Virus record (IMG/VR): IMGVR_UViG_3300022929_000154
Location: 1-28,083 of that record
Origin: a virus
Direction: 5' to 3' (one strand)
DNA: 28,083 nt
Shown: positions 2,959 to 21,946 of the stretch, piece after piece
Numbering within the stretch: position 1 is the stretch's first letter
Layout of the letters: every line of letters begins with the position of its first letter
Made by a program: the position numbers and the translations under genes
Notes under the pieces: model-generated
Seen by the model: the letters and a program-made list of their open reading frames with translations, nothing else
Told to the model about the DNA's origin: nothing
Database searches by the model: none

Positions 2959-3111
2959 TTACTTTTCTCGCTTATAAACGTTATAAGCTTCAGTAACAGT
3001 TAAGTTCTCATCAAAGCCTTTGTCCATAGCATCAACAAGCCATTCAAAGGTTTTACCGTAGAACTCAGTTGCTCTACGGGTTAAAACAGTTATTGCACGA
3101 TTATACTTCAT
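2959..3111 (-). CDS. 50-residue basic hypothetical protein
   Basis: ATG at 3111 (a second ATG lies immediately before at 3114; AGGA is six bases from the 3111 start) opens 50 codons, starting MKYNRAITVLTRRATEFYG and ending AYNVYKREK. Basic and helical, no membrane segment. The start lies within the last codons of the HD hydrolase gene, which suggests translational coupling. Function unknown. Confidence 0.6.
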   Translation of the reverse strand: MKYNRAITVLTRRATEFYGKTFEWLVDAMDKGFDENLTVTEAYNVYKREK

Positions 3112-3613
3112 CATTCTTCCTCATCTCTTCAAGTTCACCCATGACTTCAAGGGTATCCATAGCAATCAAAAGGCTAACAGTCTCTTCTTTAAACAAGTTC
3201 CAGAACTTTGGATCATGCTCTTCGATGCTCAGGCTGTTGTGAAACATATCAGCAGTCTTCAGGATCCGAATGATCTCGGGTGCTTCCCGCAACCGTGCTT
3301 CACACAACTCTTTCCGAAACTTTCGATTCCCAACATAGTTAGGAGTCTTAGTCAAGAACCAGACACCTTTCGCAATCTCATCACCGAACTTATCTTCGAT
3401 GTCTTCCATAGTCGCTACAGTGTCTTCGACTGTATCGTGGAGAAGTGCAACTTGAACAGCCATCATGATATCTTCTTCGCTGTAGCCTTTCTTGTCAAGG
3501 TAAATCTCAACAATGTCAGCAACAGCAACTGGGTGAGTAATATACTCTTCACCAGTGTACTTCCGTACTTGACCTTCGTGCATCTTAGTTGCAAATTTTA
3601 ACGCTTCGTACAT
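3101..3613 (-). CDS. HD-domain (p)ppGpp hydrolase-like protein (SpoT/Mesh1 type)
   Basis: 170 residues, the size of stand-alone alarmone hydrolases (Mesh1 family). All hallmarks of the RelA/SpoT hydrolase domain are visible: AxxxHxGQxRKxTGExYIxHP at residues 8-28, the metal ligands H27, H59-D60 and D122, the catalytic ED at 63-64 in LLHDTVEDT, and HN at 125-126. It would remove the 3' pyrophosphate of (p)ppGpp in a Mn2+-dependent way, blunting the host stringent response; action on another nucleotide such as NADPH is possible. There is no synthetase domain. It is the first gene after a strong early promoter. The start ATG lacks a clear Shine-Dalgarno. Domain assignment is firm; substrate is inferred. 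Confidence 0.88.
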   Translation of the reverse strand: MYEALKFATKMHEGQVRKYTGEEYITHPVAVADIVEIYLDKKGYSEEDIMMAVQVALLHDTVEDTVATMEDIEDKFGDEIAKGVWFLTKTPNYVGNRKFRKELCEARLREAPEIIRILKTADMFHNSLSIEEHDPKFWNLFKEETVSLLIAMDTLEVMGELEEMRKNDEV

Positions 3614-3648: not shown

Positions 3649-3676
3649 ATAATAACAGGTTCACGCAGAATGTCAA
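3649..3676 (-). promoter_or_regulatory. Sigma70-type early promoter for the HD hydrolase gene
   Basis: Minus strand: exact TTGACA (3671-3676), 16-base spacer, then TATTAT (3649-3654). The leader to the ATG at 3613 is about 30 bases. Confidence 0.75.
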
Positions 3677-3696: not shown

Positions 3697-3810
3697 TTAT
3701 TTTTTACCGTCAAAGTAGTCTGTTAGCCAAACTGCTATGTACCATGTAACTACGGGTATACAGAACATAAGAATGAGGGCAAACTCCATAGATGTCATAG
3801 CTTCACTCAT
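3697..3810 (-). CDS. 37-residue single-pass membrane protein
   Basis: ATG at 3810 opens 37 codons. A hydrophobic helix, FALILMFCIPVVTWYIAVWL, spans about residues 10-29, followed by a short charged tail ending FDGKK. The start overlaps the last eight bases of the gene at 3803-3952, so translation is likely coupled. Small membrane peptides like this are common in phage early regions; role unknown. Confidence 0.55.
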   Translation of the reverse strand: MSEAMTSMEFALILMFCIPVVTWYIAVWLTDYFDGKK

Positions 3811-3952
3811 CCTCGATCTTATTGCCATAGTAATCGTGAGTTCCAGCTCTATAGTTCTGCTTTCGCTCTTCGATGATTAAGGCGCTTATCCACAAGGCTT
3901 TGGCGCCAAAGTACGTTATCACAGAGAAAAACAATATTTCTAAAATTCCCAT
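3803..3952 (-). CDS. 49-residue small membrane protein
   Basis: ATG at 3952 opens 49 codons. An N-terminal hydrophobic helix covers residues 2-27 (start MGILEILFFSVITYFGAKAL), followed by a polar tail with NYRAGTHDYYGNKIEDE, a tail I associate with small conserved T4-like phage proteins. It overlaps the genes on both sides (13 bases upstream, 8 downstream), forming a coupled trio with 3940-4158 and 3697-3810. Confidence 0.6.
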   Translation of the reverse strand: MGILEILFFSVITYFGAKALWISALIIEERKQNYRAGTHDYYGNKIEDE

Positions 3953-4190: not shown

Positions 4191-4219
4191 ACTATACACT
4201 ATTTTTTCTGTTTTGTCAA
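4191..4219 (-). promoter_or_regulatory. Sigma70-type early promoter, minus strand, in the divergent gap
   Basis: Minus strand: exact TTGACA (4214-4219), 17-base spacer, TATAGT (4191-4196). It drives the small genes leftward from 4158 and is back to back with the late promoter of the lipase gene. Confidence 0.8.
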
Positions 4220-4271: not shown

Positions 4272-5039
4272 ATGACTTCTATAACTAAACTATCCGTAAC
4301 CCAGAGATCATTGCTTTTTGCTAGACTATCAGCAATTGCATACTTAGCTCCAGAAGAAGCAAAGAAGTCAGCCAGATCACTTGGATTTACAACGACAGAG
4401 TTCTACAATCGTGATGGCGCTCAAGCATACAGATTTCAGAATAAGTACGATCTAGTTATTGCTTGCAGAGGCACTCAGCCAACAGAATTTGGCGACATCA
4501 AGGCAGACCTTCAGGCAATGCCAGTTGTAGCAGAAACTATCTCACGTGTACATCGTGGATTCAAAAAAGAAGTTGATGATATTTGGCCTATGATCTGCGA
4601 AGACATTGATCGTAAGCAAAATCTTTCACGTAAACTTTGGTTCTGTGGACACTCTTTAGGTGCGGCAATGGCTACTATTATGGCAAGTCGATGCAAGCAC
4701 GAAGAAAGATTAAATGACCCTGTTATGCTATTCACATATGGCTCACCTAGAGTAGGTTGGAAAGGATACTGTAATAGTTTAGGAGTTGTGCATCATCGTT
4801 GGAGAAATAACAACGATATCGTAACAACAGTCCCACTCAAGTTAATGGGTTACACTCATCATGGATTAGAGCATTACATCAATGCTTATGGACAAGTAAG
4901 AAATCCTACTGGTTGGCAAAGAGTGAAAGATAAGTTTCGTGGATTGTGGATGGGGCTAAAGCAAGGCAAAGTCGATTCATTCTCAGATCACAGCATTGAT
5001 GCCTACATCAAACACATTGGTGATCACGTAGGGTCATAG
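4272..5039 (+). CDS. Class 3 lipase-like alpha/beta hydrolase
   Basis: 255 residues, the only sizeable plus-strand gene here. It has the lipase class 3 layout: IACRGT (oxyanion region, about 63-68), VHRGF (93-97), the nucleophile elbow GHSLGAA with Ser128, FTYGSPRVG (154-162), the catalytic-Asp motif NNDIVTTVP with Asp182, and a likely catalytic His240 in SFSDHSIDAYIKH. There is no signal peptide or membrane helix, so the product would be cytoplasmic unless released by holin action. The ribosome binding site GAGGAG and a late promoter point to expression late in infection. Possible roles are damage to the host membrane at lysis or lipid mobilisation; the sequence does not decide. Its 3' end overlaps the convergent SET gene by 16 bases. 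Confidence 0.88.
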   Translation: MTSITKLSVTQRSLLFARLSAIAYLAPEEAKKSARSLGFTTTEFYNRDGAQAYRFQNKYDLVIACRGTQPTEFGDIKADLQAMPVVAETISRVHRGFKKEVDDIWPMICEDIDRKQNLSRKLWFCGHSLGAAMATIMASRCKHEERLNDPVMLFTYGSPRVGWKGYCNSLGVVHHRWRNNNDIVTTVPLKLMGYTHHGLEHYINAYGQVRNPTGWQRVKDKFRGLWMGLKQGKVDSFSDHSIDAYIKHIGDHVGS

Positions 5040-5311
5040 AAAGTATAGTTACATAGAATCTCTTCACCTGGCCATATGTCACGTTTGGCTACCATAAAGA
5101 ATCTACTATCCTTTCGCACTTTCTCAATATTATCATCAGTGGTACTATGATTGTAGAATGCTCCCAATGGAGTACGCATAATCTTTTCGCCCCAATAGAA
5201 GTGAGATAAGCCGATCTCTTGACCGGCTTCTATTTTCTCTACACACCATAGTCCAAGTCCGTGTATGCTTGACTTCTTGATTGTTACACAAGACGGTAGT
5301 GGAGTATACAT
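5024..5311 (-). CDS. Small SET-domain protein (putative lysine methyltransferase)
   Basis: 95 residues, shorter even than the viral SET protein of chlorella virus. It carries the SET pattern: SSIHGLGLW (15-22), the turn IEAGQEIG (27-34), the pseudoknot motif FYNHS (52-56) with a following N61, and the C-terminal GEEILCNYT (82-90) with the expected Tyr89. There is no post-SET cysteine cluster. SET proteins transfer methyl groups from S-adenosylmethionine to lysines; the target here is unknown. The start ATG has AAAGGA eight bases upstream. It is the last gene of the nucleotide operon and overlaps the end of the lipase gene. Confidence 0.8.
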   Translation of the reverse strand: MYTPLPSCVTIKKSSIHGLGLWCVEKIEAGQEIGLSHFYWGEKIMRTPLGAFYNHSTTDDNIEKVRKDSRFFMVAKRDIWPGEEILCNYTFYDPT

Positions 5312-6195: not shown

Positions 6196-6350
6196 GCCTC
6201 TTCATCTTCATCCCAATCATCGTAGTCATCGTCATCGTGATCGATTTCGCTACCACATATGGGACAATATAAAATAGGATCTTCCATGTTGAGGGTTTCT
6301 ACTGTACACTCACTTTCACAATAGTCACAAAATATTTCTTGTCTTTTCAT
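6186..6350 (-). CDS. 54-residue zinc-ribbon protein with acidic tail
   Basis: ATG at 6350 opens 54 codons. Two CxxC pairs, FCDYC and YCPICG, about 20 residues apart form a likely zinc ribbon. The last 18 residues are nearly all Asp/Glu with Trp. The start shares ATGA with the stop of the dCMP deaminase gene. It could bind nucleic acid or a polymerase component; no specific role is known. Confidence 0.7.
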   Translation of the reverse strand: MKRQEIFCDYCESECTVETLNMEDPILYCPICGSEIDHDDDDYDDWDEDEEAWN

Positions 6351-6775
6351 AACTTCTCCACCTTTATTTTACATTTCTCTAGAAAATGAATGCCATTCTC
6401 ATCCCTATACTTATGCTTGTAGAAAACTGCACTTATACCACTAGCATATATCATCTTAGCGCATTCGATACAAGGAGCATGGGTAATGTACATAGTCGCA
6501 TCTTTACCGCTTTCATTTGATCCTGCTAACTTTGATATTGCGTTTGCTTCTGCGTGAATGACTTCTGGTTTTGTTTTTGTTAGAGGCACTCCAAAATCAT
6601 CATCTCCAGTTATCTCTTCGCAAGTGTTTGACCAACCGGCTGGCATACCGTTATAGCCAATAGAAATGATTCGATTATCTTTTACAACAATCGAACCAAC
6701 TTTCAATCTTTGGGCAGAAGACAGAGAAGCGAACCTCTCTGCCGTATCCATATAAGCACTCTGCCACTTATTCAT
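6347..6775 (-). CDS. cd: Deoxycytidylate (dCMP) deaminase
   Basis: 142 residues from ATG 6775, which overlaps the nrdB stop as TGATG; an in-frame TTG 12 bases upstream is less likely. Zinc-binding cytidine/deoxycytidylate deaminase motifs are complete: HAEANAI (His74, Glu76) and PCIECAKMIYASG (Cys102, Cys105). It converts dCMP to dUMP, feeding thymidylate synthase encoded in the same operon. The length is typical for phage dCMP deaminases. It is followed directly by the zinc-ribbon gene. Confidence 0.93.
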   Translation of the reverse strand: MNKWQSAYMDTAERFASLSSAQRLKVGSIVVKDNRIISIGYNGMPAGWSNTCEEITGDDDFGVPLTKTKPEVIHAEANAISKLAGSNESGKDATMYITHAPCIECAKMIYASGISAVFYKHKYRDENGIHFLEKCKIKVEKL

Positions 6776-7782
6776 CAGGCTGGACAACCTTGTCCATCAA
6801 GACCACAAACTTCACCCTCCGATGTGTTCTCGTCCCAACCCCATTCGCCTTCCATGCCGTTAACTGAATACTCAGTAACTCGCTTTTCAAAGAAGTTGTC
6901 ATGTGAAGCGCCATTCAGTACCCAGTCTAACCACGGTAGTGGATTGTCTTTGACTTTGAACTTAGGCTTCATACCTAATTGAAGTAGTCTACGGTCAGCG
7001 ATGTGACGGATGTACTGCTTCACTTCTTCTTCTGATAGTCCTTCAATGACACCAGCATTTTTGTATGCAAGTTTGATGAACTTATCCTCTAGTTTCACTG
7101 AGTTGGTTGCCATCTCATAGATTTTAGACTTCAGTTCGTCATTTACGATACGTGGATGCTCATCTGTGAACTCACGAAACAGCTTTGCGTTACCTTGAAC
7201 GTGCATTGTCTCATCACGTATAGACCACTCTACAATTGTTCCCATGCCTTTCATCTTACCGAAACGCTGAAAGTTCAGTAGCATTACGAACGAGGCAAAC
7301 AATGACATGCCCTCATTAAACACAGATTGAGCAAGCACTAGTGCTAGTCCTGTATGTGTATTGATATTGCCTTGAGCCATGAAGTCTAGCTTATCTGCCA
7401 TTTCACTATACTCTAAGAATGTGTGAAACTCTTCATCTGGCAGACCAAGTGTATCATTCAACAATGCATATGCACGTTGATGCACACCTTCACGTGTCGC
7501 AAATGAAGACAGCATATTACGAATCTCATTATTCTTAAACTTAGGAATCATAAGTTCGTGGTAGTTCTCTCCGACTTGTACGTCTGACTGCGTGAACAGT
7601 CTCAAAATCTGTACAATAAAATCTTTCTCTTCTTCACTCAGCTTCGTCTTCCAGTCTTGTACATCCTCAGACAACTCAGCCTCATCTTCAACCCAATGTA
7701 TTTCTTCGTGTTTCTTTGTTAACTCAACTGCCCATGGATACAAAAATGGGCGATAGCTTTTTGAAAATTCTAGTAGTGACAT
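6775..7782 (-). CDS. nrdB: Ribonucleotide reductase class I, beta subunit
   Basis: 335 residues. Diiron ligands are in the E. coli spacing: Asp67, Glu98 and His101 in REGVHQRAY, then Glu in SVFNEG and the RDETMH motif. Tyr105, four residues after His101, matches the radical-bearing Tyr122 of E. coli NrdB, so this is a normal tyrosyl-radical enzyme. The C-terminus ends CGLDGQGCPA, the tail that docks on NrdA. AAGGAG precedes the ATG and overlaps the nrdA stop. With NrdA it makes dNDPs for phage DNA synthesis. Confidence 0.96.
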   Translation of the reverse strand: MSLLEFSKSYRPFLYPWAVELTKKHEEIHWVEDEAELSEDVQDWKTKLSEEEKDFIVQILRLFTQSDVQVGENYHELMIPKFKNNEIRNMLSSFATREGVHQRAYALLNDTLGLPDEEFHTFLEYSEMADKLDFMAQGNINTHTGLALVLAQSVFNEGMSLFASFVMLLNFQRFGKMKGMGTIVEWSIRDETMHVQGNAKLFREFTDEHPRIVNDELKSKIYEMATNSVKLEDKFIKLAYKNAGVIEGLSEEEVKQYIRHIADRRLLQLGMKPKFKVKDNPLPWLDWVLNGASHDNFFEKRVTEYSVNGMEGEWGWDENTSEGEVCGLDGQGCPA

Positions 7783-7792
7783 TTATTTCTCC

Positions 7793-9781
7793 TTAACCTT
7801 CACATGCACGGCATTCATCGCCGTCTTCAATTTCTACTGGCTGTTCTAAAAATTTTAACAATTCGTTATATCCACCAATATACTCGCCAGCAATGTATAT
7901 TTGTGGTACAGATTTAACGTCCTTTCGACCTGTGACTTCAGCGGCTGATTTACCAATCTCTACAAGATCAATGCTGTCGAATGGAATACCTCTTAGTCGT
8001 AACTCTTCTTTTGCCATCGAACAGAACGGACAATCTTTCTTTGAGTATACGATATTTCTTTTGTCGCCTTGTAAAGCAACTCTTTCTACTTTCTCACTAA
8101 CGTTTTCAGCCCTCTGCTTTGATTCCGTACGTAAATAATATAGTCCCTTAAGTCCTTCTTTCCATGCACGTAGATGCACTTGATTGACATAGGATTTAGG
8201 TGCTCCTGATGGGAAGAATAGGTTAACTGATTGCCCTTGACAGATAAACTTTTGTCTGTCTGCGGCATGCTGTACAACCCAGTTTTGATCTAATTCATCA
8301 GCAGTCTTAAATACTGCCTTTTCGCCTTCAGTCAAAAACGGTAGATGTTGTACTGAGCCTTTCTTTGTAATAATAGATGTCCATATAGCATCGTTATTCT
8401 CTCCCTTCGCTGTAAGTATCTCTTCGAGGTACTTGTTCTTAACTAAGAAAGAACCAGCACGTGTACGATGAGTGTACGCATTTGCTTTTAGAGGCTCAAT
8501 TGAGGGACTTGTAGATAAAATTACGCCACTTGAGGCATTAGGCGCAATCGCAAGAAGGTGGGAATTTCTTCTCCCCGTTCCTTCTCCATCTGGATATTCT
8601 CCTCTTTCTTCCGCAAGCAGTTCTGTTTCTGCGACTGCTTCTTCTTTGATGTGATTAAATACCACTGTATTAATTTCTTTTGCGAGTTCGGATTCCCAAG
8701 CAACTCCGTGTTTTTGTAACAGAGAATGAAATCCCATTGCTCCGAGACCAATACTTCTTTCTCTTGATGCAGAATACTTTGCTCTAGTGATAGTGTCTGG
8801 TGCGTTTTCGATGAAATATTGCAAGACGTTATCAAGCATCCGAACAAGATCACGCACAATGGAAGTATCTTTCCAGTCATCATAGTACTCCAAGTTTAAT
8901 GAAGATAGGCAACAAACCGCAGTTCTTTCTGCGCTTGTAGGTAAATGAATTTCGTTACATAGATTTGATCCGTTGATCTTAAGACCTAAGTCTTTTAAGT
9001 TCTGCGGTAAATCAGCGTTAGCGGTATCAATGAAGTTTAAATATGGCTCACCAGTACGAAAGCGTGTTTCAATGATACGTTCCCATAGCTTGCGGGCATC
9101 TACAGTTTCTTTAACTCTGTTATCTTTTGGATCTTTAAGATCCCAAGTTGTGCCGTTTGAAACAGCATCCATAAATGCGTCAGAGATATTAATTGCGTTA
9201 TGTAGATTAAGTGCTTTACGCTGTACGTCACCTGTAGGAATACGCATATTCAAGAATTCAATAACGTCTGGATGCGATACATCCATATAAGCCGCATAAG
9301 AACCCTTGCGTGTTTTACCTTGACGATACGCAATCATATCGGCATCAACTGTATGCAGAAACGGCATAGGACCAGGAGCGATATCACTTACTGTACGAAC
9401 ATCAGACCAGTGACCACCCACACCACCGCCATATACAGATAGCCATCGCAACTCAGCAGTGTGATCGATTAGACCCTCTAGGGTATCAGGAACATATGTT
9501 AGAAAGCAAGAGATGGGCATTCCCTTGCCCTGCTTCGATCCATTCGGAGCGTTAGACAAAACAGGCGAAGCAAACATGAACCACTTGTTTGATACATAAT
9601 TGTATAATCGCTGTGCTAAGTCTTCATCCATTTCATCCTTGTATTTCGACCACGCAGTAGATGCACGTTTGTATGCTTCTTGAGGTGATGATTCGTATTC
9701 TGTTAGATAGAAATCCTTTAGCATTCCTACAGCATAGTTTGCTAAGAGATCGTCTTTTGTCTTATCGATTTTTATAGTCAT
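7793..9781 (-). CDS. nrdA: Ribonucleotide reductase class I, alpha subunit fused to glutaredoxin
   Basis: 662 residues from ATG 9781 (GGA seven bases upstream; an upstream in-frame GTG at 9823 lies inside thyA and has no ribosome site). Active-site elements of class I NrdA are present: PISCF (Cys92), GSNLCNEIH (Asn273, Cys275, Glu277), AVCCLSSLNLE, and the tyrosine pair in LKGLYYLR. No N-terminal ATP cone is visible, so dATP inhibition is probably absent. From about 570 to 645 there is a complete glutaredoxin domain with CPFC (Cys584), the cis-Pro motif VKSVPQIYI and GGYNEL, placed before the usual redox-shuttle tail CRAC (657-660). The fusion would let the enzyme be re-reduced in cis by its own glutaredoxin. 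Confidence 0.95.
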   Translation of the reverse strand: MTIKIDKTKDDLLANYAVGMLKDFYLTEYESSPQEAYKRASTAWSKYKDEMDEDLAQRLYNYVSNKWFMFASPVLSNAPNGSKQGKGMPISCFLTYVPDTLEGLIDHTAELRWLSVYGGGVGGHWSDVRTVSDIAPGPMPFLHTVDADMIAYRQGKTRKGSYAAYMDVSHPDVIEFLNMRIPTGDVQRKALNLHNAINISDAFMDAVSNGTTWDLKDPKDNRVKETVDARKLWERIIETRFRTGEPYLNFIDTANADLPQNLKDLGLKINGSNLCNEIHLPTSAERTAVCCLSSLNLEYYDDWKDTSIVRDLVRMLDNVLQYFIENAPDTITRAKYSASRERSIGLGAMGFHSLLQKHGVAWESELAKEINTVVFNHIKEEAVAETELLAEERGEYPDGEGTGRRNSHLLAIAPNASSGVILSTSPSIEPLKANAYTHRTRAGSFLVKNKYLEEILTAKGENNDAIWTSIITKKGSVQHLPFLTEGEKAVFKTADELDQNWVVQHAADRQKFICQGQSVNLFFPSGAPKSYVNQVHLRAWKEGLKGLYYLRTESKQRAENVSEKVERVALQGDKRNIVYSKKDCPFCSMAKEELRLRGIPFDSIDLVEIGKSAAEVTGRKDVKSVPQIYIAGEYIGGYNELLKFLEQPVEIEDGDECRACEG

Positions 9782-9794
9782 TTTTGGTTCCGTT

Positions 9795-10673
9795 CTAAAT
9801 GGCCATTTCTGCTTTGATGGCACTTAATGGGTTATAGTTCTCAAGCTGGAAGTCAGAGACGTCCAAGGCTAACACTTCCTCAATAGAAGAAAAGTCTTTA
9901 ATGATTTTCAGTGTGGGTAACTTTTGCGGGCTTCGCTTGAGTTGTTCTTTCACTGCTTCATAGTGTGTAGTATATATATGTGCATCACCAACGGTAAGTA
10001 CAAAATCCTGTACCTTTAAGTTGGTTATTTTGGCTATAATATGAGTCAATAAAGAGTAGCTTGCAATGTTAAAAGGTACACCTAAAAACAAGTCTGCGCT
10101 TCTCTGATACATCTGGCAACTCAACTTTCCATTACTAACATAAAACTGCGCCAATGTATGACACGGTGGTAGAGCCATCTTGTCGATTTGATTAGGATTC
10201 CATGCACTTAGAATCAATCTACGACTATCTGGGTTTGTCTTTATCTCATTGATAAGCCACTCAATCTGATCAGTACCCTTCAGATGTGGAGAACTATTGT
10301 ATATCTCTCCGCCAAAGTTTCTCCATTGAAAGCCATAAACTGGACCTAACATACCGTCAGAGTATCCTAGTGCTTTGCCCTGATTCTCTGCGTTATCAGT
10401 CCAGATAGTTCGCTTTGCGGTTAGTTCTGATCTATCTTTACCGTAAGTTATTTCTGCCAGTCTTCTCTCATCCATAGAGCCTTCGAGAAACCAAAGCAGT
10501 TCACCCACAACAGATTTCCATGCTAACTTCTTTGTTGTAACAGCAGGAAATCCTTGAGTCAGGTCAAATCGCATTTGATAGCCAAAAATGCTTTTTGTTC
10601 CTACTCCAGTGCGATCACTCTTCTCTTCGCCCCAAGTCAGGACGTCATCTAATGAATCCAAATATGTTCTCAT
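9795..10673 (-). CDS. thyA: Thymidylate synthase
   Basis: 292 residues of the folate-dependent ThyA type. The catalytic cysteine is Cys171 in LPPCHT; MYQRSADLFLGVPFNIASY is the dUMP-binding segment, and GDAHIYTTHYEA and the N-terminal DRTGVGT are also conserved. It methylates dUMP with methylene-tetrahydrofolate, which the adjacent DHFR regenerates. The C-terminus ends AEMAI, close to the usual hydrophobic terminal AV/AI. Its start overlaps the DHFR stop as ATGA. Confidence 0.96.
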   Translation of the reverse strand: MRTYLDSLDDVLTWGEEKSDRTGVGTKSIFGYQMRFDLTQGFPAVTTKKLAWKSVVGELLWFLEGSMDERRLAEITYGKDRSELTAKRTIWTDNAENQGKALGYSDGMLGPVYGFQWRNFGGEIYNSSPHLKGTDQIEWLINEIKTNPDSRRLILSAWNPNQIDKMALPPCHTLAQFYVSNGKLSCQMYQRSADLFLGVPFNIASYSLLTHIIAKITNLKVQDFVLTVGDAHIYTTHYEAVKEQLKRSPQKLPTLKIIKDFSSIEEVLALDVSDFQLENYNPLSAIKAEMAI

Positions 10674-11143
10674 GGTGATCTTCTATACTTTTCAATACGT
10701 AAATTTTTATCCACATCATATGACTTAAAGTATAGTTCGAAATCTACTAGATCACTTATGCGTGTATCACAATCATAAATTCCATTGATACGACTAATCC
10801 ACACTTCTTCACATAAATGCATCAACAGATCAAATGTGTGTTTGCCACCAATTACCCAAACGTCTTGTTCAAATTTTTCAACGTGTCTAATTGCAGTAGC
10901 TTCATCTTTAAAGACTACGTTCGGTCCAGCATCAATGCGCTGTGAAGTAATGACAACGTTATATCTATTGGGTAAGGGTTTGGGCATTTTTGGATCATTC
11001 CAAGTTCGTCTGCCCATAATTACAACATCACCGTCTGTACATCCTCTAAACCATTTCAAATCTTCTGAGTTATGTTTCCATGGTAAGGTGCCAGCTTTGC
11101 CGATGCCGCCTTCTCTATCACATGCAAATATTGCTCTGATCAA
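10670..11143 (-). CDS. folA: Dihydrofolate reductase
   Basis: 157 residues. DHFR features: GGIGKAGTLPW loop, catalytic acid Glu27 in PWKHNSEDLKWF, MGRRTW for NADPH binding, and WVIGGKHTF. The first codon is TTG at 11143 with GGAG seven bases upstream; no ATG or GTG fits. A six-codon reading frame that begins on the primase stop and ends on this TTG may couple translation. It supplies tetrahydrofolate to the thymidylate synthase encoded next. Confidence 0.93.
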   Translation of the reverse strand: MIRAIFACDREGGIGKAGTLPWKHNSEDLKWFRGCTDGDVVIMGRRTWNDPKMPKPLPNRYNVVITSQRIDAGPNVVFKDEATAIRHVEKFEQDVWVIGGKHTFDLLMHLCEEVWISRINGIYDCDTRISDLVDFELYFKSYDVDKNLRIEKYRRSP

Positions 11144-12241: not shown

Positions 12242-12269
12242 ATTATACACTATTGGAGCGTGGTGTCAA
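12242..12269 (-). promoter_or_regulatory. Consensus sigma70-type promoter of the primase-nucleotide operon
   Basis: Minus strand: exact TTGACA (12264-12269), 16-base spacer, exact TATAAT (12242-12247). This is the strongest host-type promoter in the window and the only clear one before the roughly 7-kb operon that ends at 5024. Confidence 0.88.
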
Positions 12270-18272: not shown

Positions 18273-18731
18273 TTATTTTTTCTCCAAAACATTTTCATTC
18301 CCTTCGTGTATCTTTTTTGTGAAAGTCTTTGGGTAGCTGTACACGTGTTTTAATAATTCATGGACTTTCACATCTGCTTGCATGATATCGATATCTCCAC
18401 CTACATTTCTAGCGGCTAACCATCTGTGATGACCATCAATGATATAGTTATCTTTGCTCACAATCAGAGGTTTTGCTTGACCAAGAGTCTTGATCTTAGC
18501 GATTGCCCCTACAACCTTATCTTTGTTAAACTCTTTCTGAATAGGCTTCAAACTCTTTGCAGGCACTTTTCTTTTTCTGACGCCCACGTTATTCTTCTTC
18601 AGATGCTTAATCAGTCCATCATAATCTTGCGATCGGACTTGTGGCATCTTATCTCTCGTAAATCCGAGAGTGTCAGTTGACTTAGGCTCATAGACCTTAA
18701 GTTCTGCTACAAAGTTTTTAAACTTCTTCAT
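18273..18731 (-). CDS. ParB-like domain protein with capsid-targeting-like N-terminus
   Basis: 152 residues. The first ten, MKKFKNFVAE, match the T4 internal-protein leader MKxYxxFIAE position by position (K2, aromatic 4, F7, aliphatic 8, A9, E10), so cleavage after Glu10 by a gp21-type protease is plausible. The body carries a ParB/sulfiredoxin-like core: KPLIVSKDNYIIDGHHRWLA with IDGHHR at about 98-103. In ParB-type folds this motif binds nucleotide, and some relatives are nucleases. The start shares ATGA with the upstream gene. Domain fairly sure; role in the virion inferred. Confidence 0.75.
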   Translation of the reverse strand: MKKFKNFVAELKVYEPKSTDTLGFTRDKMPQVRSQDYDGLIKHLKKNNVGVRKRKVPAKSLKPIQKEFNKDKVVGAIAKIKTLGQAKPLIVSKDNYIIDGHHRWLAARNVGGDIDIMQADVKVHELLKHVYSYPKTFTKKIHEGNENVLEKK

Positions 18732-21700
18732 ACCTTAATCACTTTGCTTGATGTACCAAAGTTCTTCTTACGCATAATAGTTTTGTTAACTACTTCATAC
18801 TCGTCCTTTTCACTATCGTAGTTAATGACGATAGGCAAGTTCAAGTCTGCCTGAATATCTTTAAGCACTGCTTCAATGTCAGGATTTTGACGAATGTTCT
18901 TCGCTTTGTTCTTTGCGATCTTTTTAAACACTCTCTGAAGTTCAGCGATTGTGATAGCAGGCTTATTGCGGGCATCATTCATTCTATCTGCAAAATGCTT
19001 AGTGAATTCTACGTCAATGCCAAACTTGTCAAGCAATCTATCAGCGAATCGTTCTAAATCGTTCAACTGTTTTTGTGTAACTTCTTCGCTGAAATGTGAT
19101 TCGAATAAATCATCAAGTTCTACTTCCTCGTGATGATCAAATGCGCTTGATTTACCCCAAGACTTATCAGATTTACGCATATCCTTTAATTTTTTCATAT
19201 TCTGTGCTAGTCTACGCTCACGATCAGCGGCTTTACGCTTACGTTCTGCTTCAGTATTGCCTTGCTTGATTCTACGTAGATTGCGTTCACGCTCTGCGGC
19301 TTGCTTGTGTCTTAGATCCTCTTTCTGCTTATCTGTCATCTGAGAGATTGGCTTAGGCACTGGTCCTTCGCTCTCTGATACGCTTTCACCAGGAGTATCT
19401 TTCTTGTAACGCTTAGTAACTTTTTCAGTACCTCTATCTCCTGCACCTCCAACTTCAATAACATACTTTTCACCTAACATATTGTGCAATACTTTGTGGT
19501 CAACATTTTTGTAAGTCTTAGCGATCTGTTGAGCATAGTAACCAGATCCATGCTTCATGCCTCTACCGCCGGCTTCTTTCTTCTTACGAGTGATTAAGTC
19601 TTTCAGTGTCTTTAGGGCGTGTTGATATGCTTTCTTATTAACTGTAACAGACTTAACTTTGTTTACTACATATCCTTCTGATGCCTCTTTACTCTCTACG
19701 AATTCCTCGAACATCTCATCGACTGAAACTTCTTCGTTTTTAGGCACACAGTTAGGCACTAGTTTGCCATTCTTCTTTTTCATGCCTCTTTGCTCATGAG
19801 AAGCCCAGCAAGGATCATCTTCTTTTAAAGATTTGCCTTCACTGTCGTATCCAGGCTTTCCAGCTTTTGCTTTCTTAGATATAGCAATAGCGGCACGTTG
19901 TGCAGGAGATACTGCACCTTCGTCTAGTTCACCACCAGCGTCTACAAATGCGGCTACAGCCATTTGCTGTTTTTTCTTGTCTGACTTACCTGCAAACTGC
20001 GGCGCATCTGAATTTTTAAAGTCATCAATCCATGCACCAAGTCCATCAGATACTTTTAACTTTTCTTCTATCTCTTCCTTCTTAGAAGAGCCACGTACTT
20101 TAGCGGCTAGGTCTGCGTCTGCTTTGCCCCATGTGCCTGATGATTTAGTAATGAAAGAGTTAACACGTGCAAAGCCCCATTGCTGTGGAGTAGTACCAGG
20201 TCTATGACCAGTTTTCCAAGCGGCAATGCCTCTGTTATATACTTGACGTAGAATGCTAAGTGGCATTCCAGACTTTTCAGCTTTCTTCTTTAGACCTTCA
20301 TTGCCCTTTGCTTCATCAAGTGATACTTGATCAAAGATGTCGTTTGTAGTCTCTTCAATAAACTGAATTAGAGCATCATCGGTATCAAACTCTTCTTTGT
20401 TGATACTTGTAATTTTTTTACGTAACTCTCTAGTCAACAGTGCGTCCATTTCACGCTCATGCTCTTTAGAAAGGTTTTCTCTCTCATCTTTGTGTTGAGT
20501 CTTTAGACGTTTTTCCGCATCAGTTTTAATAGTAATTTCGTCTAGTTCAACTTCTTCTTTGCGTTGTCTGAATGCACGAAAGCGGCGATCTAATTTAACA
20601 GCGCCTTCTTTGCCAAACATTTGATGATATCGCTTAGTGTGCTTTGATGGCTTAGTCTCTGCTTCTGCATCACCTGGTGCAGGCTTGTATGCTGAGTTAT
20701 CGTCATCATCTTTTTTGCCATGCTTTTTGAAATGTGCGTCACGCTTGTCTTTAGTTGACTTTGCCAGACCCTTGTAGTATACTGCAGGCTGTGTACCCTT
20801 CTTATCTTTGATATCTGGGTCTTGTCCTGTAGTAGGCTCTTCGAACAGTGCAGTGAATTCTTCGTTCATTAAGAATGATTCAAACTCTTCATTTATCTTT
20901 TTACCTGACAGTTTAGCAAGGTCTGCTTTTCTGACTTTTGGCAGTAACTTCTTTGCGATTCTGTCGATTGCAGATTTCTTTGTTGCCACTCGCTTATCAA
21001 TAAGCATCTTCTCAGAAGGAGATAGGCTATTGTACTTCTCGCCCTTCTTTCCAGCAACTTTCTTACGAATGATTTTAATGGCAGCCTTTCTTGCACGTAA
21101 CTTCAACTTGTCCATTGAAGCGGCTTTCTTAGCCATACGTCTGCGACCTTGAGCAATCTTAGACTTGTACTTACGCATTGTGATTGCTCTCATGCGTCTT
21201 TGTTGGATAGTTAATGCTTCATCAAGTTCTAGCATCTCAGCGATCTTCATGCCACCACGTACCATATCATATACATCTTGTGCATCTGATTGGAGTCTTC
21301 GAGGTAGACCTGTTTTGAATTTTTTGAAATCGCCTTGCGAGGCTGCGGCTCTCATCTTAGATGCAGACATGCCCTCAACTCCCTCTGAGTCTGGGTCACG
21401 ATCACCAGCAGATACAATAGAGATATTGTCGAAGTTGTAGTCTTTACCGTTGTACTTGTTGAGTAGTTCATCGAATTGCTTGATTCGATCTTGTCCAACA
21501 ACGAGAATTACCTTAGAGAATTTCTTCTGCAACTCTTGCATGATTTGGATGATAGTACGAGCATTGGACTTTACGATGATGTTGCCGAATGCTTTCTTTG
21601 CAAGCATGATCTTATCATCGTAGTCTAGAGGATTTTTCTTAGCGTCTTGGCTATGAGAAACATAGATCAGCGGTGTTGCCGCTTCTGATCTTGCGACAGA

Positions 21701-21946
21701 TTTGATTTTGTTGACTAGCTTTTCATGTCCAACAGTAATTGGATTCATTCTGCCCCAACCCAAAACCACTGTCTTGTTTGGAGCTTCTTCAAGCTTGGGA
21801 TTGATCTCAATAGCGTTCTTCACTAAGAGTTCATCTTTTACTTTCTTCGAAGCCTTCTTTGGCTTCTCTGTCTTATCCGTCTTCTTTTTAGAAGTCGTTT
21901 CTTCACCAGAGTTTGCCTCTGGATTTTCCATAGAATCGTCTTGCAT
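18728..21946 (-). CDS. 1072-residue mosaic protein: N-terminal nucleotidyltransferase plus putative internal head modules
   Basis: After a charged leader (1-55), residues 57-230 form a cytidylyltransferase/NMNAT-like domain: VVLGWGRMNPITVGHEKL (the NPxTxGH nucleotide motif) and GMSASKMRAAA (the SxSxxR-like motif, 192-202). The rest is a chain of Lys/Glu-rich modules separated by acidic LxE motifs: LELDE 239-243, ELDE 467-470, SLDE 542-545, ELDE 673-676, VELDD 942-946. The modules include a very basic one (245-350), one with AAWKTGHRPGTTPQQWGFAR (about 575-594, possibly DUF5824), one with DPCWASHEQRGMKKKNG and PNCVP, a helical RER-rich one (860-935), and a C-terminal globular domain (955-1072). 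Likely packaged in the head and processed. Confidence 0.65.
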   Translation of the reverse strand: MQDDSMENPEANSGEETTSKKKTDKTEKPKKASKKVKDELLVKNAIEINPKLEEAPNKTVVLGWGRMNPITVGHEKLVNKIKSVARSEAATPLIYVSHSQDAKKNPLDYDDKIMLAKKAFGNIIVKSNARTIIQIMQELQKKFSKVILVVGQDRIKQFDELLNKYNGKDYNFDNISIVSAGDRDPDSEGVEGMSASKMRAAASQGDFKKFKTGLPRRLQSDAQDVYDMVRGGMKIAEMLELDEALTIQQRRMRAITMRKYKSKIAQGRRRMAKKAASMDKLKLRARKAAIKIIRKKVAGKKGEKYNSLSPSEKMLIDKRVATKKSAIDRIAKKLLPKVRKADLAKLSGKKINEEFESFLMNEEFTALFEEPTTGQDPDIKDKKGTQPAVYYKGLAKSTKDKRDAHFKKHGKKDDDDNSAYKPAPGDAEAETKPSKHTKRYHQMFGKEGAVKLDRRFRAFRQRKEEVELDEITIKTDAEKRLKTQHKDERENLSKEHEREMDALLTRELRKKITSINKEEFDTDDALIQFIEETTNDIFDQVSLDEAKGNEGLKKKAEKSGMPLSILRQVYNRGIAAWKTGHRPGTTPQQWGFARVNSFITKSSGTWGKADADLAAKVRGSSKKEEIEEKLKVSDGLGAWIDDFKNSDAPQFAGKSDKKKQQMAVAAFVDAGGELDEGAVSPAQRAAIAISKKAKAGKPGYDSEGKSLKEDDPCWASHEQRGMKKKNGKLVPNCVPKNEEVSVDEMFEEFVESKEASEGYVVNKVKSVTVNKKAYQHALKTLKDLITRKKKEAGGRGMKHGSGYYAQQIAKTYKNVDHKVLHNMLGEKYVIEVGGAGDRGTEKVTKRYKKDTPGESVSESEGPVPKPISQMTDKQKEDLRHKQAAERERNLRRIKQGNTEAERKRKAADRERRLAQNMKKLKDMRKSDKSWGKSSAFDHHEEVELDDLFESHFSEEVTQKQLNDLERFADRLLDKFGIDVEFTKHFADRMNDARNKPAITIAELQRVFKKIAKNKAKNIRQNPDIEAVLKDIQADLNLPIVINYDSEKDEYEVVNKTIMRKKNFGTSSKVIKV

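Follow-up and report, generated by a model that had tools for sequence, protein, structure and literature searches.

A putative small alarmone hydrolase gene in an IMG/VR phage contig

Small alarmone hydrolases (SAHs) have been described from both phages and bacteria. PaSpo of Salmonella phage SSU5 reverses the tRNA modification made by FaRel2 (PMC11559606), the SAH of Pseudomonas phage Adele has (p)ppGpp or (p)ppApp as its predicted substrates (PMC12846349), and the HD-alarmone phosphodiesterases (PDEases) of jumbo phages have been proposed to counter alarmone-based immunity (PMC7824862). The prophage enzyme Aph1 cleaves pppApp (PMC12226406), while an orphan bacterial SAH is promiscuous and hydrolyses (pp)pGpp as well as pppApp (PMC9765508). 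Here we describe a gene at 3101..3613 on the minus strand of the virus record IMGVR_UViG_3300022929_000154, a single contig of 28,083 bases (the window). Its 170-amino-acid product, P0001, is probably a phage SAH, a reading that draws on the computed fold, active site, lack of a synthetase, promoter and selection.

Domain content, active site and predicted fold

The open reading frame (ORF) begins with ATG, is uninterrupted and has its stop codon within the coordinates. Against Pfam, P0001 matches HD_4 at 2.2e-12, exceeding the HD_4 cut-off, and HD_4/HD are the only Pfam domains present. It also matches PHROG 990 (“metal-dependent phosphohydrolase”) at 6.6e-30 and the NCBIfam model spoT_relA (TIGR00691) at 5.8e-20, the latter over just the first 124 of 687 positions, which is the N-terminal domain only. 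Significant matches to PDB sequences are exclusively to Rel, SpoT, MESH1 and SAH chains. Pfam and NCBIfam profile searches gave no synthetase, TGS or ACT domain in the 170 residues, a short length that lies within the SAH size class. Against relatives of 65-97% identity, in pairs with unsaturated synonymous divergence (dS), the gene has an omega of about 0.1, and the protein is therefore maintained by purifying selection. The low omega rules out a chance ORF, while the RSH-type profile matches, together with the Foldseek neighbours given below, rule out an unrelated HD family.

We aligned P0001 with RelSeq, SpoT, Rel, MESH1 and further references, taking E. coli RelA as a negative control. The alignment pairs R17, K18, T20, Y24, H27 and H59 of P0001 with R44, K45, S46, Y50, H53 and H77 of RelSeq, and D60, E63, D64, D122, N126 and S129 with D78, E81, D82, D144, N148 and T151. 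Both the metal and catalytic set (RelSeq H53, H77, D78, E81, D82, D144) and the nucleotide-holding set (RelSeq R44, K45, Y50, N148) are complete in P0001. Most of the tested hydrolase residues are missing from E. coli RelA, which has no hydrolase activity in its HD domain. An earlier note on this DNA had described an HD protein with SpoT/Mesh1-type metal and catalytic residues in the right order and size and without a synthetase; the residue map, the profiles and the length bear this out, and support P0001 as a stand-alone RSH-type (SpoT/MESH1-like) hydrolase whose predicted active site is intact.

The AlphaFold model of P0001 has a predicted local distance difference test score (pLDDT) of 92.6 and a predicted template modelling score (pTM) of 0.88. 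Its best Foldseek matches are MESH1, the SAHs of P. aeruginosa and Leptospira, and Rel, with template modelling (TM) scores of about 0.70-0.79, and the predicted fold is that of the SAH/MESH1 enzymes. A distant match to DatZ, an HD enzyme of phages (E 0.038), might suggest, as might the hydrolysis of NADPH by MESH1 and XccSAH (PMC9765508), an enzyme that acts chiefly on another nucleotide such as NADPH, CoA, PAPS or dNTPs. We consider this very unlikely, as SAHs and MESH1 match far better than DatZ does, P0001 is recognised by RSH-type profiles rather than by those of dNTPase-type HD families, and XccSAH is itself about 1000-fold better with alarmones than with NADPH (PMC9765508).

From these features we infer the catalysis, substrate, timing and benefit of the enzyme as follows. 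H27, H59, D60 and D122 would coordinate a metal ion, which is Mn2+ in the family, with E63 and D64 as the catalytic pair and R17, K18, Y24 and N126 holding the nucleotide. The enzyme would take the 3′-pyrophosphate off (p)ppNpp alarmones, returning GTP/GDP or ATP/ADP. Host RNA polymerase would transcribe the gene from its own sigma70-type promoter shortly after infection, and the likely benefit is that host alarmone, raised by starvation or by synthetase defence, would no longer halt transcription, translation and nucleotide supply.

Phylogenetic placement and substrate

In a tree of 90 rows, P0001 falls in a viral-only clade of 27 rows with support of 100/100. This clade is split from the long RSHs at 97/93, and MESH1 stands on its own branch; in the approximately unbiased (AU) test a joint clade with P0001 is not rejected for the long RSHs (p 0.299), for MESH1 (p 0.202) or for the group of the (p)ppApp hydrolase 7smg (p 0.345). 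The tree places P0001 and PaSpo within a fan of phage and bacterial SAHs that has no resolved branching order. Relatives of P0001 occur in 399 phage records and are encoded in 212 IMG/VR stretches, numbers that, together with the published phage SAHs, run counter to the view that a SpoT-type hydrolase is less usual in phages. Phage SAHs are already known and common, and the window gene is one more of them. The gene and family calls are sound and the rarity was over-claimed, while the role of the hydrolase is a proposal made from sequence.

A few observations weigh against reading P0001 as an alarmone hydrolase. At RelSeq positions R145, L146 and M149, which we take to be among the proposed base-choice columns (PMC7644958; the numbering of that paper is apparently off by four), P0001 has M, F and S, a pattern of neither RelSeq nor MESH1, and since these columns match neither class, base specificity is unreadable from them. 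RelSeq R150, two positions after N148 and an arginine in the long RSHs and MESH1, is L in P0001 and S in PaSpo. Some HD relatives use other nucleotides. Finally, the absence of the RelA_SpoT synthetase (PF04607) from the related contigs (0 of 42) is weak evidence for an orphan SAH, as these contigs are fragments.

At RelSeq R44, P0001 keeps arginine (R17), whereas 7smg has an aspartate; this aspartate, a trait of 7smg and of the two phage members examined (the 7smg/Aph1 type), is not found in P0001 in the alignment. The P0001 sequence does not separate ppGpp, ppApp and 3′-pyrophosphorylated tRNA as the substrate. The scanned window genes likewise include no visible alarmone synthetase gene, and because the 42 related contigs lack the RelA_SpoT synthetase, P0001 looks like an orphan SAH. 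A role as half of a toxin-antitoxin pair of the ATfaRel type was dismissed on the same count, the contigs being possibly fragments.

Promoter, gene neighbourhood and proposed role

A sigma70-type promoter, TTGACA-16-TATTAT, lies at 3649..3676 (minus strand), its -35 element beginning 63 nt before the SAH start. Such a promoter, matching at 11/12 or 12/12 positions and starting about 45-63 nt upstream, precedes 14 of the 18 SAH genes examined; each of the 14 sites was reached by at most 1% of shuffles, and some of the contigs are near copies. Promoter-like sites in the region number 29 against 32.3 expected, and because this count is not above chance, the promoter claim leans on the quality of the site and its conservation in homologues. 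The spacing of the SAH ribosome-binding site in the window looks poor. Of the “strong early promoter” put forward in the earlier note, the strength stands, given the TTGACA-16-TATTAT match and its conservation; the timing comes from the host sigma70 type alone, by which the gene would be transcribed early in infection. The exact pattern TTGACA-N15-19-TATANT occurs three times in the window against 0.15 expected by shuffling, and the SAH promoter is not among the three. These three near-consensus sigma70 promoters lie on the minus strand at 759-787, 4191-4219 and 12242-12269.

An intact block of nucleotide-synthesis genes begins about 2.7 kb from the SAH gene, all on the minus strand: dCMP deaminase (6347..6787), the ribonucleotide reductase small subunit NrdB (6775..7782), the large subunit NrdA (7793..9823), whose ORF also encodes a glutaredoxin domain at the C-terminus, thymidylate synthase (ThyA; 9795..10673) and dihydrofolate reductase (DHFR; 10670..11143). 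Between the SAH gene and this block lie a GIY-YIG gene, a peptidase-like gene, a SET-domain gene (5024-5311, minus strand; 95 amino acids, notably small, in a phage) and an antisense class 3 lipase gene (4272-5039). The lipase gene is on the plus strand, opposite to almost all window genes, and is conserved in close relatives. Upstream of the SAH gene, at 3803..3952 (minus strand), a 49-amino-acid membrane-like ORF ending YRAGTHDYYGNKIEDE is conserved in this place in many related contigs.

The block suggests a metabolic role, as put forward in the earlier note, in which the SAH would hold ppGpp down so that a starved host keeps making nucleotides and protein beside the phage nucleotide enzymes. 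This choice of role within the SAH explanation is one we hold tentatively, at somewhat less than even chances. The retention of R44 and K45 as in ppGpp hydrolases (7smg has D at R44) and the conserved host-type promoter are in keeping with it, and the gene order from SAH to nucleotide block is kept in close relatives. However, no nrd, thyA or DHFR homologues were found in the examined flanks of the SAH-bearing stretches L029-L033, L036-L037 and L050-L068, which belong to the same SAH clade, and the suggested pairing with a nucleotide operon is weak, with the block set off behind other genes and the link not conserved across the clade. The strategy of lowering alarmones also has little direct proof, because the sole tested marine-phage candidate, cyanophage MazG, is inactive on ppGpp (PMC6850273).

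Alternatively, the same enzyme may serve anti-defence first, undoing mainly the products of toxSAS, CapRel and FaRel/PhRel (tRNA 3′-CCA pyrophosphate or (p)ppApp), with starvation ppGpp secondary; we regard this as a possibility of roughly one in three. It would agree with the earlier proposal for the jumbo-phage enzymes (PMC7824862), with the lack of synthetase partners in the 42 related contigs and with three tRNA genes that lie on the minus strand downstream of the SAH gene, within about 3.5 kb of it (Arg-acg 196-271, Leu-taa 905-989, Arg-tct 1210-1286), and that are possibly tied to tRNA-targeting defences. Yet promiscuous SAHs manage such reversal without selection for that role, the P0001 sequence has no tRNA-binding-specific feature, and neither a host nor a defence system is linked to the window phage. 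We rank ppGpp control slightly above counter-defence against toxSAS, and both may hold.

A second small gene overlaps the 3′ end and stop codon of the SAH gene. This 50-amino-acid ORF (P0002; 2959..3111, minus strand) is predicted to fold into three helices and is possibly translationally coupled to the SAH. P0002 has homologues in 19 IMG/VR contigs, several of them near copies, and in 18 of the 19 an SAH lies no more than 1 kb upstream; in the L160 stretch the ORF is present and no SAH is seen. The ORF has a low omega, and in most relatives its conservation exceeds that of the SAH: at an SAH identity of 70-72%, P0002 is still 90-94% identical. It co-travels with the SAH across phage lineages having few or no other tested neighbours in common (carriers include L029, L030, L031, L033, L036, L037, L155, L156 and L158). 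P0002 has zero matches among isolate phages, and a Foldseek search against the PDB gave nothing significant. It is conceivable, but improbable in our view, that the SAH clade of aquatic T4-like phages and this three-helix protein form an early two-gene module against alarmone-making or tRNA-pyrophosphorylating defence, in which the small protein regulates or retargets the hydrolase.

The window phage looks T4-like. Its primase is 52% identical to those of Sinorhizobium phages phiM7, phiM12 and phiM19, and its DUF6267 protein is 52-53% identical to those of phages C48C1 and DLP_6, of which DLP_6 likewise encodes an SAH. A megablast search of the window against isolate phages matched only 73 bp of a Proteus phage, and this stretch (1207-1279) covers a tRNA-Arg gene. 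PADLOC returned zero hits. Further along, a 1072-amino-acid protein (18728-21946, minus strand) combines an N-terminal cytidylyltransferase-like domain with a DUF5824 region.

Comparison with described hydrolases

MESH1 (HDDC3) is the top Foldseek match by E-value (1e-7, TM 0.77) and has every metal and catalytic residue, but it is 24-28% identical to P0001 and occupies a separate branch of the tree. The bacterial SAHs of P. aeruginosa (6yvc), Leptospira (7qoe) and C. glutamicum (RelH, 7qod) are HD-only like P0001 and resemble it at TM 0.69-0.79, while being chromosomal and 24-30% identical in structural alignments. The Adele SAH and the jumbo-phage PDEases carry the same kind of published claim; they are predictions from other phage groups, likened here by description.

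Cyanophage MazG was likewise proposed to reduce ppGpp in marine phage infection, but it belongs to another protein family, and it gave no match above the family cut-off in the 42 related contigs. Because cyanophage MazG did not cut ppGpp when tested (PMC6850273), an RSH-type phage hydrolase would be the better candidate for marine phage control of host alarmones. The counter-defence idea, in turn, becomes testable in an aquatic T4-like lineage through this gene, since one phage SAH related to it undoes the pyrophosphorylation of tRNA. That enzyme, PaSpo of SSU5, differs from P0001 in its length (213 versus 170 amino acids), its longer C-terminus, its phage type and its position outside the 27-row viral clade. 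Like P0001, it is a phage HD-only SAH without a synthetase domain, sharing 36% identity over 157 positions and the motifs RKYTGE-Y--H, HD--ED, GNR and D---N.
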